The notes under the pieces were generated by a model, which had not been told where the DNA came from, did not search any database, and was given only the letters and a program-made list of their open reading frames with translations. From the IMG/VR virus record IMGVR_UViG_3300022223_000005, positions 1-52,919 of that record: a DNA stretch of 52,919 bases. The stretch is one strand, 5' to 3'. Positions 2,870-26,374 of the stretch are shown here, one piece after another. A program made the position numbers and the translations under genes. This DNA comes from a virus. The stretch's first letter is position 1. Each line of letters starts with the position of its first letter.

Positions 2870-3706
2870 TCATCTTGATCCAGTATAAGTTTTATGTACA
2901 TGATCATGTTTTTTATGATCATTTTTTTTATTTGGTGATTTGATCCAATTTGCGTTCAATCTTTCAAGTCTTGCAAACAAAATTTTTGTTTCAAATTTTA
3001 TTTCTTCAGTAATGCATATAGAATTGAAATTAATCTTGAAAACTTCAAAATTCTCAAAACTTGATTTATTTTTAATTTCAAAAGTTTCAATTCTAGATGG
3101 GCTTTCTTTTTTTAAAAAATCATAAGCCTCTAAATCTTCTTTTAAAAAAACATCTTTTTTACTTGTGTTTTTTTCTTTTGTTTCTTTTTTTAAAAGAATA
3201 TCACTATCACTATCACTAACACTATCACTAACACTATCACTAACACTTACACTTACGGTATGATTCGTATCAGTTCGTATACCATCGTATACGGTCGTAT
3301 CATTTTGCGTACCATCGTATACGGTCGTATCATTTTGCGTACCATCGTATACGGTCGTATCATTTTGCGTACCATCGTATACGGTCGTATCATCTTTTGT
3401 ACCATCGTATACGATTGTATCATCTTGTGTATTTTTTAGTTCGATAGAATTTTTCTTTTCCCATCGTTTTTTTATGTTTTTTCTGTTTTGCTCTTTTTTA
3501 GCCTCCCATTTTTTCAAATCCCTTTTTAATGTTTCCATTATTGAAGGGAATACAAATCTTATTACATCTTCATCGCTTTTAGGGTCAATGTCGTTTACAT
3601 ATTTCAATATGTGTTTTATTAATACACCTGCCTCTGAATCTGTTAAATTGTCAAATGTGCTCATCCAATCGCAATAAGCTGTAAATGATTTTTTTCCTTC
3701 TGCCAT
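2870..3706 (-). CDS. Replication initiator-like protein (DUF6291 type) with internal repeats
   Basis: 278 residues. The first 85 residues (KKSFTAYCDWMSTFDNLTDS, then AGVLIKHILKYV and a basic coiled stretch) match the DUF6291 pattern found at the head of replication modules in Bacteroidota phages. Residues 93-142 are five 10-residue repeats (DDTTVYDGTQ type), followed by a Ser/Val/Asp repeat (about 150-170). The C-terminus is a charged domain of the kind seen in DnaD/initiator-like proteins. The repeats are encoded by 30-bp DNA iterons, so the gene probably contains the replication origin, as lambda O does. A loader gene follows on the same strand. Assignment as initiator is inference from context and iterons. 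Confidence 0.65.
   Translation of the reverse strand: MAEGKKSFTAYCDWMSTFDNLTDSEAGVLIKHILKYVNDIDPKSDEDVIRFVFPSIMETLKRDLKKWEAKKEQNRKNIKKRWEKKNSIELKNTQDDTIVYDGTKDDTTVYDGTQNDTTVYDGTQNDTTVYDGTQNDTTVYDGIRTDTNHTVSVSVSDSVSDSVSDSDSDILLKKETKEKNTSKKDVFLKEDLEAYDFLKKESPSRIETFEIKNKSSFENFEVFKINFNSICITEEIKFETKILFARLERLNANWIKSPNKKNDHKKHDHVHKTYTGSR
3201..3254. repeat. 12-bp tandem repeats beside the iterons
   Basis: The motif CACTATCACTAA (or its truncated 6-bp form) is repeated about five times and encodes the SVSDSVSD stretch of the initiator. It separates the 30-bp iterons from an A/T tract at about 3105-3200 that could be the unwinding element of an origin. Confidence 0.6.
3281..3430. repeat. Five 30-bp iterons (candidate replication origin)
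   Basis: Five head-to-tail 30-bp units (3281-3310, 3311-3340, 3341-3370, 3371-3400, 3401-3430). The first three are identical and the last two diverge slightly. Each begins ACCATCGTATACGGTCGTAT: a CGTATACG palindrome plus a second TCGTAT exactly 10 bp from the first, on the same helical face. A degenerate half unit precedes them at 3259-3280. Position inside the initiator gene, beside an A/T-rich tract, is the lambda-like ori arrangement. Confidence 0.65.
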
Positions 3707-4753: not shown

Positions 4754-5137
4754 TTAAATAAATATCAAAGATTTAGAATATGATATAGTCAATTCTAATA
4801 AATTAACATCCTGAACTACTATTTCATTTATTTTTTCGTTTGAAATTTGATCTATTATTATTTGTAATCTGTTTTTAATGTTTTTGTCGGTGTCCATCAA
4901 TCCTAAGACAGTTTTTTTAGCATGTAATGCCGTGGCGTGGTCCCTATCATAGACCGCGCCTGCTGATATTGATGTGTAGTTGTTAAGCATCAATAAGTAC
5001 ATTATTATTTGCCTAGGGAAACAGATAGCCCTTTTTCTGGACTTAGTGTATAAAAGTTCAGGAGTAATATTGTAATTATCACATACTATTTTTTCAATTA
5101 TGTTTACCATTTTTTGTCTTTTTATTCTCGTTTTCAA
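4754..5137 (-). CDS. Stand-alone DnaA domain IV protein
   Basis: 127 residues from the ATG at 5137; the internal ATG at 5110 (MVNIIEKIV) is an equally good start. Almost the whole protein matches the DnaA C-terminal DNA-binding domain: a start helix (VCDNYNITPELLYTKSRKRA), ARQ-like FPRQIIMYLL, and the signature VYDRDHATALHAKKTV corresponding to 'gRDHsTVlHA'. DnaA domains I-III (ATPase) are absent. It lies downstream of the nuclease-FtsK fusion and a 56-residue protein in one tight operon. It could bind host or phage DnaA boxes, either blocking host initiation or marking the phage origin. Confidence 0.75.
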   Translation of the reverse strand: MKTRIKRQKMVNIIEKIVCDNYNITPELLYTKSRKRAICFPRQIIMYLLMLNNYTSISAGAVYDRDHATALHAKKTVLGLMDTDKNIKNRLQIIIDQISNEKINEIVVQDVNLLELTISYSKSLIFI

Positions 5138-5264: not shown

Positions 5265-7367
5265 TTAGATTTCTTTGTAAAATCCTTGAAACCTTACCAG
5301 TCCATGGTATTCTGGTGAGCTTATAAGGCCATCACCTTTGCCTCCCAATGTTTCGGCACCACCTTGATCAAGAACTACCTTTGAATCTATCTCACGGGAA
5401 ACCCTAAAGCATATTTGAACTGGAAAATTAACCTTTGCATCACCAGATATTACTTTTACAGATGCTCGTTGTGTTGCTGCTATTACTCTAAATCCTAACG
5501 ATCGCCCTTTTTGAAGTATCATTTTCAAATTTTCTTCCAAAGACTTTTTTCGACCAACCGTTTGAAGTTTCATTTTGGGTTTAGGTGGTCCTAAATCTCC
5601 TTTTTTCTGTGCATAAAAACCAACCTCCACCATTTCTTTTACGTCTAATTCACGCCCCTTTTTTGATGAGTCCAAAGCGTCTGCAAATTCATCGAAAACA
5701 ATAAATGTTTTCTTTGTACGTCCAGTCTTTGTTAGTAATTGCATTTGTTCAACTAGTTTTTCCATCTCAATCTCAATCTTATCAATATCTCTTATAACTC
5801 TTACAATGCCCTGGCACTTGGTGTTAAATTCATTTTTAGGATCAAATATTATTATTTCGTCATAATCTAACAACTTCGCATATTCTATTGTTGAATTTAT
5901 CATAACCGATTTTCCTGATCCAGTGGACCCACATACTAATGCGTGAGCTGTTGCCGGATTTTCAACATCAAAATAAACAACATTATTGAAGTTGTCCATT
6001 CCTATAGGAATTTTACCATCAATCAAATACTTCGGGTCGTAACTCAATACCTTATCGTTTTTCTTTCCACATTCCAAATGAATATACGACTTCCCATCAT
6101 ATACTTTCAATTGTGTGTCTATTCTTATGCTTGAAACGTCTAGCGCGCTTGCAATGTCTAATTTGTATTTAAAGATTTTATTCAAGGTAGTACCTGCTGA
6201 TACACTCAAAAGAAATGCATCACTTGAATAACCCTCGAAAAAGTGTTCAACCTTCACCACCAATCCTAGTGAGCGTAATATATGTTCTATTTTTTCAGTT
6301 TTGTTCATGTCTTTATTTGTTAGATCGTATAAAATAAATTCAGATGCATTTTTTCTGAATGTCTTTATAATTTTGGGGTTAATGGATGCCGTTGATGCAT
6401 CACGTATTTTTTTTAATCTTCTCGAGATGATATCTTTTTTAGATTCATCAACATTGAATTCATCAATTTCTGCAATCATTGTTTTGGACCAAAAAGCATG
6501 CATATGTTCCTTGCTTACAAACGTGTCATTTTCATTCATTAAATACACGTAATCTGGATTCGAAACGGCTTCGATCATGCGTTTTAATGGCTCGTATAAC
6601 ATTGCTTCGTATAACTTTACAGTGTCATTGTCCATTGGCATTTTAAAGCAATTCAATTGAGGTGATCCATCTCTATTTTTTGAATACTTGTTTTCAATAA
6701 ACCAAACCTCATCAGCTATTATGTTCATTTTAGCTTCCAAAACCTTGTAATAAGTTATGGCTTGTTTTCCAATTGACAAAGCCAATTCCTTTTCATCGGA
6801 AAAACAATTTTTTGACTTATGATCAATTATTATCGTTTTTCCTTCTGAAGTTTTTGCTATTAAATCAATTTTAGCATGACAAGGCAATGGAATGTCAACA
6901 CCGTTTATTTGAAGAAACTCATTAAAATAGTCCTCAACCGATATGACTTCAACAATATCATATACAGAAATGTCATTTATAAAGTTTTCTAACAACTTTG
7001 AAACTATTGAAGATGCTTTTATTTGGCATTCTGATATTGTCTTTGTTGTTTTTTGAAGCTTCCAGATATTTGCCTTAACATTGTCAATGTATTCAAATGC
7101 TATTTTCTCCAAGTCAACTAGGTCAAGTGTTAAGTTATCCTTTTTGTTTATAAAATACCTTTCCAAAGCTGCATGATATGCGTTACCCGCAACCGTTGAT
7201 GAACTTGATTTCGATCTTTCATTGTAGATATAGTTCATTTCAAAAGCTTTTTCATTTCTGGCAAAAGACATTACTTTTGAATAACTCCAACTATTTACAA
7301 GAAAGTTAGAATATAGCTCGTCATATTCTGACGAGCTTAAATTTGAATATTCGTGTATGTGTTTCAT
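5265..7367 (-). CDS. RecB-like PD-(D/E)XK nuclease fused to FtsK-type DNA translocase
   Basis: 700 residues with two enzymes in one chain. Residues 20-210 are a RecB/Cas4-like nuclease: GxxxH motif GNAYH (61-65), KIDLI with D168, IIDHKSK with D182 and K184, and the QAITYY motif (Q202, Y206). Residues 355-460 resemble the FtsK alpha/beta subdomain (IEHILRSLGLVVKVEHFFEG, then DIASALDVSSIRI). Residues 470-700 are the RecA-like motor: Walker A GSTGSGKS (480-487), Walker B TFIVFDEFAD (554-563), AATQRAS (630-636) and a GGAETLGGKGDG segment as in FtsK. The FtsK gamma (KOPS-reading) domain and membrane domain are missing. It starts one base inside the stop of recT. A motor-driven end-resection enzyme feeding the annealing protein is the natural reading, comparable in concept to AddAB or HerA-NurA. 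Confidence 0.85.
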   Translation of the reverse strand: MKHIHEYSNLSSSEYDELYSNFLVNSWSYSKVMSFARNEKAFEMNYIYNERSKSSSSTVAGNAYHAALERYFINKKDNLTLDLVDLEKIAFEYIDNVKANIWKLQKTTKTISECQIKASSIVSKLLENFINDISVYDIVEVISVEDYFNEFLQINGVDIPLPCHAKIDLIAKTSEGKTIIIDHKSKNCFSDEKELALSIGKQAITYYKVLEAKMNIIADEVWFIENKYSKNRDGSPQLNCFKMPMDNDTVKLYEAMLYEPLKRMIEAVSNPDYVYLMNENDTFVSKEHMHAFWSKTMIAEIDEFNVDESKKDIISRRLKKIRDASTASINPKIIKTFRKNASEFILYDLTNKDMNKTEKIEHILRSLGLVVKVEHFFEGYSSDAFLLSVSAGTTLNKIFKYKLDIASALDVSSIRIDTQLKVYDGKSYIHLECGKKNDKVLSYDPKYLIDGKIPIGMDNFNNVVYFDVENPATAHALVCGSTGSGKSVMINSTIEYAKLLDYDEIIIFDPKNEFNTKCQGIVRVIRDIDKIEIEMEKLVEQMQLLTKTGRTKKTFIVFDEFADALDSSKKGRELDVKEMVEVGFYAQKKGDLGPPKPKMKLQTVGRKKSLEENLKMILQKGRSLGFRVIAATQRASVKVISGDAKVNFPVQICFRVSREIDSKVVLDQGGAETLGGKGDGLISSPEYHGLVRFQGFYKEI

Positions 7368-8047
7368 TATGGTAGGTTTTCAATTTTATCTTTCATAGTC
7401 TTTTTTTTATCTTCAACAGTTTGAGGTTTAACCTCAATTACCTCCAAATCACTTGCATCACCATCCCCAATTTCACACCCTGTTATAGTGTTAAATAGCC
7501 AAGCTCTTGCCTTTCTTGTTGCTTTTCCTATTACCGCATCAGTTCCCATTAATTTGTTAACTTTTATAGGTATATCCATTGACGACTTATTTTTGTTGCC
7601 TCCATCTATTGACCATTGTATGTCCATAACAATTGCTGCACTAGTACTTTCGCTGTTTATCCTTGGAAGATTTGGAACTATGTTGTACCAAAGCCCTTTC
7701 TGCTTTGATAACAGGTGCTTAAATCCTTCTTTTGTTATGTAGCATTGACCCTTTATGATGTTGAATTGATTACCAACAGGCTCAACACCTGTCAATACAG
7801 CTTCAATAAGACAGTTTTTAACAATATCTAAGCTGTAACCTCCATCTTTGTCCCTGTCTGTCTTAAAGCCAAGCTTATTTCCTTGTAAATCCATAATAGG
7901 TTTCATGTAATTGTCGTTTAACAACGTTTTTAATTCACCTACGGCCTGAGCAACCACATAAGCCTTTTTAAATCCGTGTATAGCATCATCACCTATTACA
8001 GATAATACTTGATCGTCTAGTTTCTTAATAATTTGATTTTCTTTCAT
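7367..8047 (-). CDS. recT: RecT-family single-strand annealing protein
   Basis: 226 residues. The central region (about 85-185) fits the RecT pattern: IEAVLTGVEPVGNQFNIIKG, CYITKEGFKHLLSKQKG, then an acidic VMDIQWSIDG strand and KATRKARAWLFNTITG, which corresponds to the 'kaK..A.r.al.' helix. The C-terminus is acidic and Lys-rich. The protein would anneal complementary strands during phage recombination and replication. Its stop overlaps the start of the nuclease-FtsK gene by one base, so the two are made together. The start is preceded by an IS605-derived insertion (8081-8239). Confidence 0.8.
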   Translation of the reverse strand: MKENQIIKKLDDQVLSVIGDDAIHGFKKAYVVAQAVGELKTLLNDNYMKPIMDLQGNKLGFKTDRDKDGGYSLDIVKNCLIEAVLTGVEPVGNQFNIIKGQCYITKEGFKHLLSKQKGLWYNIVPNLPRINSESTSAAIVMDIQWSIDGGNKNKSSMDIPIKVNKLMGTDAVIGKATRKARAWLFNTITGCEIGDGDASDLEVIEVKPQTVEDKKKTMKDKIENLP

Positions 8048-12500: not shown

Positions 12501-13331
12501 ATGTGGATTGTACCAAAAAACATATTGAACAACAAAGAATACTATCTTTTTGCTACGGGTACGGAGGTCTCGAAAGAGGAATTTCAGAAATCATTCCCAC
12601 AAGAACTGTCGCTTATGTGGAGATCGAAGCCTTTCAAAACTTCAACCTGGTATCAGCGATGGAATCGGGTATGGTGGATAAAGCACCTATTTGGACGAAT
12701 CTTAAAACCTTCGATGCAAAACCGTTTCATAACAGAATACACGGAATCGTTGGGGGTTATCCGTGCCAAGGGGAAAGCCACGCAGGTAAAAGAGAGTTGT
12801 GGAACGATGAGCGATTCCTTTGGCCTTATATTGAAAAGGCTATCATCGCAACAAACCCTTTTTGGTGCTTCTTCGAAAACGTCTCTGGACACCTTACGGG
12901 ATCTTTCCCCTACATTCTTGACAGCTTACGATCTTTGGGTTACACAGTTGAAGCAGGATTGTTTACAGCGGATGAAGTTGGCGCGCCACACGAGAGAAAA
13001 CGGGTCTTTATACTCGCGATGGGCGACACCCAGGGCGTTTTGTTACAAAGATTCGGATCACGATCGAGGGAAAAGCAATTTAGGGGAGCAAGTAATGAAC
13101 TTTCCGACTCCATCTGCAAGAGATTACAAGGGGGCGAGTTTTGGAGCAAAAGGAAGGGATTGCCTAGATTTTGCTGTAGAAGTAAACAAAACAAAACATT
13201 ATGGCCAGCTAAACGAGGGCAATCACAATACGAATGGGAAGCTTATAGAACGGTTGAACCCGGAGTGGGCTGCACAGTTAATGGGTACAACTTTCGAACA
13301 GAGCTTTTACGCCAGTATGGCAACGGAGTAG
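12501..13331 (+). CDS. Overprinted protein sharing DNA with the methyltransferase (276 aa)
   Basis: A full-length frame, in a different phase from the methyltransferase, with an ATG two bases before that gene's GTG. It does not read like a chance frame. It has W/R-rich blocks (STWYQRWNRVWWIKHLFGRI), the segments SSQQTLFGASSKTSLDTLRD and YDLWVTQLKQDCLQRMKLAR, and a C-terminus with WATPRA, TPSARDYKGASFG and LNPEWAAQLMG. From memory, TP..RDYKG and LNPEW..QLMG phrases occur in the tail regions of phage cytosine methyltransferases. The likely role is a partner or target-recognition subunit. Function is not demonstrated, but two conserved protein sequences appear to share about 830 bp. Confidence 0.6.
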   Translation: MWIVPKNILNNKEYYLFATGTEVSKEEFQKSFPQELSLMWRSKPFKTSTWYQRWNRVWWIKHLFGRILKPSMQNRFITEYTESLGVIRAKGKATQVKESCGTMSDSFGLILKRLSSQQTLFGASSKTSLDTLRDLSPTFLTAYDLWVTQLKQDCLQRMKLARHTRENGSLYSRWATPRAFCYKDSDHDRGKSNLGEQVMNFPTPSARDYKGASFGAKGRDCLDFAVEVNKTKHYGQLNEGNHNTNGKLIERLNPEWAAQLMGTTFEQSFYASMATE

Positions 13332-13393
13332 TAAGTCAAACCGCAGCATTGGCCTTTGAAACATTATTAGATAAAATGACATTAAAACAGTAG
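12503..13393 (+). CDS. dcm: DNA (cytosine-5) methyltransferase
   Basis: 296 residues from the GTG at 12503. All core motifs are present: motif I LSFCYGYGGLERG (about 14-26), motif IV GGYPCQ with catalytic Cys88, motif VI FFENV (123-127), motif VIII APHERKRVFILA (161-172) and motif X YGNGVVSQTAALAF (272-285). The variable region between VIII and X is about 100 residues, short but enough for a small target domain. It would methylate cytosine in phage DNA, hiding it from host restriction. The whole frame is overlapped by the 276-residue gene at 12501, which constrains codon choice and gives this stretch a noticeably higher GC than its neighbours. No cognate endonuclease gene is visible. Confidence 0.88.
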   Translation: MDCTKKHIEQQRILSFCYGYGGLERGISEIIPTRTVAYVEIEAFQNFNLVSAMESGMVDKAPIWTNLKTFDAKPFHNRIHGIVGGYPCQGESHAGKRELWNDERFLWPYIEKAIIATNPFWCFFENVSGHLTGSFPYILDSLRSLGYTVEAGLFTADEVGAPHERKRVFILAMGDTQGVLLQRFGSRSREKQFRGASNELSDSICKRLQGGEFWSKRKGLPRFCCRSKQNKTLWPAKRGQSQYEWEAYRTVEPGVGCTVNGYNFRTELLRQYGNGVVSQTAALAFETLLDKMTLKQ

Positions 13394-25189: not shown

Positions 25190-26374
25190 TTGTATAATTT
25201 AGACCCATTAATTAAAAGCGTGAATTTAATAATAAAATCATATAAATACAAGTTAAAGACCAATAATACTCAGTATGAAATACTGAATAATTGGATCAAT
25301 ACTTGTCGTGCGGTGTACAATCTATCTTTGGAAACTAAGATAGAGGCGTACAAAACTAGGCAGGTATCTCTTAGTAAGTATGATTTAATGAAACAACTCC
25401 CTGAATTAAGGAATGAATTTGAATGGATCAAGGACGTTCCATCACAGTCTATGCAAAATGTAGTCGAACGCCTTGATGCTGCTTACAAGAAGTTTTTTAA
25501 AGGAGGCGGTTTTCCTAAATTCTCAAAGAAAGGAGCATACAAATCCATTCTGTTCAAACAAGGTGTAAAATACAGTAAAACACACGTAACATTTCCTAAG
25601 ATTGGCAAAATAAGATTCTTCAATTCTAAAAACATACCAAATGGATCAAAGATAAAAACAGCAATAGTAAGAAAAGAAGTAGATGGATTCTACATTAGTA
25701 TAGTAGTAGAGCAGATTACAGAAAAAAAACATTTCAATCCAAAAAGTGATAACCAAGCTGTAGGAATTGATATGGGTGTAAGTAAGTTCTATTCGCTTTC
25801 TACTGGAGATTCAAAAGAGAACCCAAGGGTATTGAAGTCATTTGAAAAAGAAATGAGAATTGCTCAAAGGTCACTTTCTAGGAAGGTGAAAAAATCAAAC
25901 AACTGGTACAAGCAACTTAAAAAAGTACAAAAGATTCATCTTAAAATAGGTCGTGTTAGAAAAGACTTTAGCCAAAAAGCAAGTACGGAACTAATAAGTA
26001 GTTTTAGCAAAATAGCCGTTGAAGATTTGAAGCTTAAGAATATGACAAAATCATCAAAGGGCGATTCAGAAAACCATGGTAAAATGGTCAAGCAAAAATC
26101 TGGGTTGAACCGTGTGATTTTAGATGTTGGTATAGGTGAGTTCTTTAGACAACTAGACTACAAGTCCAAATGGTACGGAAGGGAGTTTGTAAAGGTAGAC
26201 CCAAAATACACCTCTCAAACTTGCAGTGATTGCTCTCACAAGTCAAAACAAAACAGGAAAACACAATCAAAATTTGAGTGTGTAAACTGTGGTCACAAAG
26301 AAAATGCGGATATAAATGCCGCGAAAAACATTTTGGTTCGGGCAGAGCCAATGTTCGTTAACGTGGTGCATTAG
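25190..26374 (+). CDS. tnpB: TnpB RNA-guided nuclease (IS605 accessory)
   Basis: 394 residues from the ATG at 25190; the GTG at 25220 (VNLIIKSYKYKLK) is the start expected from the family and gives 384. RuvC acidic residues are present: D194 in AVGIDMG, E278 in IAVEDLKL and D374 in ENADINAAKN. The zinc ribbon CSDC...CVNC (C345, C348, C364, C367) lies between the last two. All catalytic residues are intact. TnpB cuts DNA next to a TAM using an omegaRNA that overlaps its own 3' end and the IS right end, which helps retain the IS at donor sites. The last codons (ILVRAEPMFVNVVH) lie within the conserved RNA block. Confidence 0.92.
   Translation: MYNLDPLIKSVNLIIKSYKYKLKTNNTQYEILNNWINTCRAVYNLSLETKIEAYKTRQVSLSKYDLMKQLPELRNEFEWIKDVPSQSMQNVVERLDAAYKKFFKGGGFPKFSKKGAYKSILFKQGVKYSKTHVTFPKIGKIRFFNSKNIPNGSKIKTAIVRKEVDGFYISIVVEQITEKKHFNPKSDNQAVGIDMGVSKFYSLSTGDSKENPRVLKSFEKEMRIAQRSLSRKVKKSNNWYKQLKKVQKIHLKIGRVRKDFSQKASTELISSFSKIAVEDLKLKNMTKSSKGDSENHGKMVKQKSGLNRVILDVGIGEFFRQLDYKSKWYGREFVKVDPKYTSQTCSDCSHKSKQNRKTQSKFECVNCGHKENADINAAKNILVRAEPMFVNVVH

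Follow-up and report, generated by a model that had tools for sequence, protein, structure and literature searches.

A single viral gene, at 5265..7367 (minus strand) of the window analyzed here (the whole 52,919-nucleotide stretch of IMG/VR record IMGVR_UViG_3300022223_000005), encodes a 700-aa protein in which a PD-(D/E)XK nuclease and an FtsK motor share one reading frame. We conclude that this fusion is probably a motorized DNA-end resection enzyme that replaces the lambda-Exo/YqaJ-type exonuclease in a phage annealing module, which any annealing protein (SSAP) would join via a C-terminal docking tail. The window belongs to a tailed-phage record, encoding terminase, portal, major head and tape-measure proteins. 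The next gene downstream of the fusion (4754..5137, minus strand) encodes a small protein with a DnaA C-terminal HTH domain (Pfam Bac_DnaA_C, 4.4e-15), and a homologous domain follows the fusion at a second locus (L023, 10086-10493; Bac_DnaA_C, 2.6e-22); a link between these small proteins and a replication origin is possible. Elsewhere in the window were a DUF6291 protein (2870-3706) with a mid-protein run of near-identical YDGTQNDTTV repeats, a cytosine methyltransferase gene (12503-13393) almost fully overlapped by a 276-aa open reading frame in another frame (region 12501-13393), and a TnpB-like gene (OrfB_IS605, Cas12f1-like TNB; 25190-26374) lying on the opposite strand within the phage structural region.

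The fusion protein comprises a RecB/Cas4/AdnAB-like nuclease domain (residues 26-226; 6690..7292, minus strand), a conserved helical linker (residues 227-353), an FtsK alpha domain (residues 354-450) and an FtsK motor (residues 451-697), the last two together making up a module (residues 354-698; 5274..6308, minus strand) in which Walker A/B and QRAS motifs occur. Motifs of the nuclease (G61xxxH65, D168, D182-H-K184, Q202xxxY206) and of the motor (GSTGSGKS at 480-487, TFIVFDEFAD, AATQRAS, GAETLGGKGDG) were all in place, so that the original observation of nuclease, alpha and motor motifs in one 700-residue frame was borne out residue by residue. Pfam matches exceeded curated cutoffs for PDDEXK_1 (residues 26-226; 5.9e-10, 39.9 bits against a cutoff of 22), which removes the concern that the N-terminal region might belong to no nuclease family, and the profile search proposed for the motor returned FtsK_alpha (residues 354-431; 2.8e-5, 24.7 bits against 22.9), FtsK_SpoIIIE (residues 452-494; 4e-7, 30.1 bits against 24) and DUF87/HerA (residues 463-583; 9e-10), likewise above their cutoffs. 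Against PHROGs, the protein matched an FtsK-like family (3e-39) and, separately, exonuclease phrog_1218 (2.2e-15); its closest PDB sequence was the FtsK motor 2iuu (1.5e-23). An AlphaFold2 model (mean pLDDT 83.4, pTM 0.48) matched the FtsK motor 6t8o (Foldseek E = 4e-23), with lower-ranked matches to the Cas4-family ACE1 (9iac, 1.3e-7) and AdnAB (9np6, 1.4e-6) that we take to represent the N-terminal nuclease. Profile, motifs and fold together identify a RecB/Cas4-type nuclease, whose activity is predicted, and an FtsK/SpoIIIE motor, with the alpha domain and a RecA-like core bearing Walker A/B; judged from sequence and model both domains are secure, their mutual placement being left unfixed by the model at this pTM. 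The FtsK gamma (KOPS-reading) and N-terminal membrane (4TM) domains were not found in Pfam and PDB searches, and the protein ends three residues past the motor; their absence rules out the full architecture of an FtsK/SpoIIIE chromosome translocase.

Among 32 aligned relatives, H65, D168, D182, K184, Q202, Y206 and the Walker A K486 were invariant wherever sequence existed, and Walker B D559/E560 were invariant in the 31 rows that reached them (one of the 32 ends earlier). The check suggested for replacement of the catalytic D/D/K triad thus found D168/D182/K184 unchanged throughout. One divergent member (L060) has D at the position of H65. In another member (L110, 3784-6687), Walker A is interrupted exactly between GATG and SGKS by an intein that carries an HNH-type endonuclease. 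Inteins typically occupy active ATP-binding sites, and for that reason we count this insertion in favor of an active motor.

At least 110 distinct fusion loci, nearly all full-length (36-63% identity), were recovered from IMG/VR and GTDB species genomes. Carriers were phage contigs or prophages and genomes mostly of Bacteroidota, together with one isolate of Verrucomicrobiota type (Puniceicoccaceae K14, 40% identity). Prophage versions in cultured hosts include those of Tenacibaculum (L034), Flavobacterium fluvii (L042) and Chitinophaga tropicalis (L036). Searches of 50,697 phages and 72,556 plasmids yielded no record covering 80% of the fusion, the matches listed being to the motor half only. 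The fusion was present in 1/396 Bacteroidota genomes and likewise in 1/297 in another survey, prevalences that are lower bounds given that few candidates were scored per genome. As the only positive among the 396 was the survey's own center, we regard the fusion as rare, mobile and phage-carried.

Immediately upstream in the window lies a 226-aa protein of annealing type (7367..8047, minus strand) ending in KIENLP. Its tail codons (I-E-N-L-P region, approximate) and stop occupy 7367..7384 (minus strand) and form a TAATG junction with the fusion; as originally proposed, the fusion's start codon lies one base inside its neighbor's stop, the junction reading CTA CCA TAATG. That neighbor had been taken for RecT, an identity that did not hold: no RecT match (PF03837) was obtained for 7367-8047 in Pfam, PHROGs, NCBIfam or PDB, and profile-profile comparison (hhalign) with RecT relatives was insignificant, which excludes RecT at the sequence level. 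The protein belongs to an orphan family of nine members, each beside a fusion. Its model (pLDDT 78) found RAD52 as best PDB folds (E = 2.4e-3, probability 0.99, TM only 0.28), and it is possibly an annealing protein of Rad52-like fold.

When the upstream gene was taken at every fusion locus, an SSAP or SSAP-like protein was found in or near this slot at 109 of ~111 assessable loci; only L006 and L113 had a fusion and no recognizable SSAP in the available DNA. Assignments by Pfam and PHROGs matches comprised RecT/phrog_148 (15), RecT-like phrog_561 (15), Bet/RecT (3), ERF (8), Rad52 (4) and Sak4-like RecA-fold ATPases (17). The unannotated partners were phrog_3657 (36), the window's orphan family (9) and two singletons (L007 and L093); we call phrog_3657 and the singletons SSAP-like from position and tail, and the window's family SSAP-like from position, tail and a weak fold match. 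Profile-profile tests found at most weak links between partner families, the strongest being among RecT-type families. At least 36 switches of SSAP family are required along the tree of the nuclease-motor, where 9 would be the minimum possible. Partner and fusion genes overlap by 4 or 1 bases in 79/109 pairs, and the gene adjacency of an SSAP-exonuclease (SynExo) pair, a PD-(D/E)XK nuclease beside or near an SSAP or SSAP-like gene, was found at 109 loci. By these assignments, partners come from no fewer than eight families of SSAP or SSAP-like proteins.

Relatives of four SSAP families were then considered, 241 of which were without the fusion. A YqaJ (lambda-Exo-like) nuclease was located ≤3 kb downstream in 105/241 of these fusion-less relatives, often in the same 4-base overlap with the SSAP. 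By gene position, the fusion evidently fills the operon slot of a lambda-Exo/YqaJ-type exonuclease.

The partners also share a C-terminal tail, first noticed in profile comparison, where unrelated SSAPs aligned at their last residues only. Its consensus is K-[IV]-[DE]-[LM]-P-COOH, with KVDLP and KIIMP among the endings observed, and an [LM]P ending was found in 85/109 fusion partners vs 5/1,823 background open reading frames of the same loci, the remaining partners ending mostly in LL, LM, LA or LK. Leu or Met was second from the end in 106/107 scored partners vs 31/241 fusion-less relatives; the two proteins left out of the 107 (L003 and L051) regain EEMP and NDMP, respectively, beyond a premature stop or frameshift. 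Within the four families for which relatives were fetched, the tail was present in 33/37 SSAPs with a fusion nearby vs 0/241 without (Fisher P = 9e-39), where the 37 overlap with the discovery loci and the 241 do not. Trees were added to this comparison on account of the non-independence of related sequences: for phrog_3657, the tree demands at least 16 changes of the fusion label, seven of them forced by well-supported branches, and independent pairs placed the tail with the fusion ~4.7 times and against it never (median sign-test P = 0.06, from few pairs), a result that taken alone is suggestive of a link. Of eleven fusion loci found later, seven SSAPs ended in [LM]P and four in LL, ML or LM, with the proviso that three of the eleven resemble or repeat earlier members (L485, L487 and L510, the last being the Sak4 control L122). 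The tail was also kept by SSAPs encoded 78 to 1,589 bases upstream of the fusion (L079, L026, L016 and L023). In L016, an HNH homing endonuclease gene (7477-8004) lies between SSAP and fusion, and the SSAP retains its tail, MEMP, 523 bases away.

The absence of [LM]P from all 241 fusion-less SSAPs excludes the tail as a general trait of SSAPs or of YqaJ partners. Among YqaJ partners, an LL ending (reading KTLL, KSLL or GKLL) occurred in 7/13 RecT561 proteins (the fusion-less phrog_561 RecT-like SSAPs L276-L280, L283 and L290), 3/27 phrog_3657 proteins (L231, L258 and L270), 0/17 Sak4 and 0/48 ERF. Perhaps this ending serves as a second tail directed at a different nuclease; it is not general across families.

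In the mechanism that we propose, FtsK-type subunits of the fusion would form a ring on a double-stranded end and pump the duplex toward their nuclease domains; absence of the gamma domain suggests loading at ends and no sequence-directed loading. FtsK motors travel on duplex DNA without unwinding it, so strand separation would have to come from the geometry of the nuclease or from the SSAP. One strand, the 5' strand by analogy with NurA-HerA (PMC9960219), would be cut away, and an SSAP docked on the nuclease-motor by its K-[IV]-[DE]-[LM]-P tail would be loaded onto the emerging single strand, as the C-terminal domain of Red-beta binds lambda Exo (PMC8303780). Since docking would need few terminal residues, SSAPs of unrelated fold could be exchanged freely. 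For this system we infer ATP dependence, hexamer formation, strand polarity and tail docking. We lean toward the view that the tail, of about five residues, is a universal docking code worn by at least eight SSAP families, including RecA-like Sak4, which allows them to be swapped freely on one motorized nuclease, and it seems rather likely that such a code has arisen or spread on annealing-protein families hardly connected by sequence comparison. Genomic context at over 100 loci, and the SSAP tail that tracks the fusion, lend strong support to a nuclease-motor that works with a phage annealing protein as its exonuclease; to this extent the original idea of a one-gene nuclease-motor feeding RecT stands, with RecT too narrow a name for what is fed.

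The tail might instead bind a co-occurring factor (a host or phage SSB-binding factor, a clamp, a loader, or a protease that reads it as a degron), the fusion still being the SSAP's partner. Its [DE]-[LM]-P ending resembles the SSB tip D-L-P-F minus the last residue, and phage SSBs at four of the loci (L004, L006, L034 and L114) end in DDLPF or NDLPF, from which mimicry of SSB docking is possible; SSB tails, moreover, bind SSAPs such as Sak4 of HK620 (PMC5928155). A covariation search for the tail's docking site on the fusion gave nothing clear, the best of ~700 columns separating fusions whose SSAP ends in proline from the other fusions at P of ~1e-5 and being confounded by relatedness. Residues 227-330 of the linker are better conserved than the nuclease domain and are a candidate for the tail's pocket. 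We nevertheless consider a different binder unlikely, given that close SSAP relatives without the fusion, intermixed on the tree, do not carry the tail (0/241), that independent tree pairs place it with the fusion and never against, and that it is kept when the SSAP gene is 523 or 1,589 bases away (L016 and L023).

A role for the fusion as a defense or counter-host effector of the "HerA/FtsK capture" kind, destroying competing DNA, would have a precedent in DndH, in which a restriction endonuclease domain is fused to HerA/FtsK (PMC10853773), and the motor does match the PADLOC models HerA, SspH and mads_8. However, those matches span the motor only, the nuclease is of RecB/Cas4 type, the constant neighbor is an SSAP and not a defense gene, and the fusion replaces the YqaJ exonuclease positionally, all of which make a defensive function improbable. 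Less credible again is a plain translocase reading, in which an FtsK protein with a degenerate nuclease would segregate or package phage DNA or resolve dimers. Motor-only FtsK relatives of 318-331 aa (49-50% identity, no nuclease) immediately precede a tyrosine recombinase gene at two loci (L512, 2971-4931; L513, 3004-4925), in what looks like a phage-borne FtsK-plus-recombinase pair and as would be expected of FtsK-activated resolution. In the fusion, by contrast, the nuclease H/D/D/K/Q/Y residues are invariant in 32/32 relatives, which excludes a dead nuclease, no gamma domain is detected, and the neighbor is an SSAP. Finally, a nucleotide-level origin of the [LM]P ending, as an artifact of start codons overlapping stop codons or of the fusion's ribosome-binding context, is barely conceivable and is excluded as the tail's source. 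Although the 4- or 1-base overlaps of 79/109 pairs constrain the last SSAP codons, an [LM]P ending occurs in 2/113 background open reading frames that overlap by the same 4 bases vs 56/63 fusion partners. The tail is encoded with each of the six leucine codons as well as ATG, with four proline codons and with any of the three stops; non-overlapping and distant SSAPs retain it, and fusion-less SSAPs overlapping a YqaJ gene are without it.

If the docking-tail reading of the motorized exonuclease is true, these phages carry a recombination module with ATP-driven, one-gene resection, intermediate between lambda Red and AddAB/HerA-NurA. The common tail would explain, simply and in a directly testable way, the exchange of unrelated annealing proteins between phages that keep the same nuclease, a pattern invisible from a single genome; it names several unannotated families as likely annealing proteins, and it suggests a portable tag for recombineering in Bacteroidota, where tools are few. 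In the open-access literature, our search turned up neither a nuclease-FtsK chain within an SSAP operon nor this tail. The design, originally left unmatched to a named phage recombination system, is not unprecedented as an architecture: the pairing of SSAP with nuclease is already known, as are nuclease-HerA/FtsK fusions in defense (DndH, PMC10853773).

The two-gene modules of lambda Red (lambda Exo plus Red-beta), RecE/RecT and YqaJ/SSAP pairs likewise combine an annealing protein with a PD-(D/E)XK nuclease encoded at the same operon position; here the nuclease shares its chain with an FtsK motor driven by ATP. The C-terminal domain through which Red-beta binds lambda Exo (PMC8303780) is a three-helix domain, in contrast to the proposed attachment of a few terminal residues common to unrelated families. 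NurA-HerA, an end-resection complex of archaea and Deinococcus (PMC9960219), similarly couples a nuclease to a ring translocase of FtsK/HerA class, and end resection by the fusion would parallel it; however, NurA and HerA are separate proteins and NurA is not of RecB/Cas4 type, while the fusion is one chain with an alpha domain-bearing FtsK motor and an SSAP partner. Membership of HerA-NurA is ruled out by the Pfam assignment to PDDEXK_1 and not NurA and by a motor closest to FtsK with the alpha domain. AddAB, RecBCD and AdnAB also tie a RecB-type nuclease to an ATP motor and resect before recombinase loading, but they use SF1 helicases that unwind, in place of the predicted single-chain, FtsK-class duplex translocase. 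DndH and the "HerA/FtsK capture" defense systems (PMC10853773) combine a nuclease with a HerA/FtsK motor, some with an FtsK alpha domain; unlike the fusion, they reside in defense operons and have a restriction endonuclease domain, DNA-binding modules and no SSAP. The fusion's neighbors, SSAPs and phage replication genes, set it apart from that group. With bacterial FtsK/SpoIIIE, it shares the alpha and motor core and differs in having neither membrane nor gamma domain and in bearing an N-terminal nuclease.
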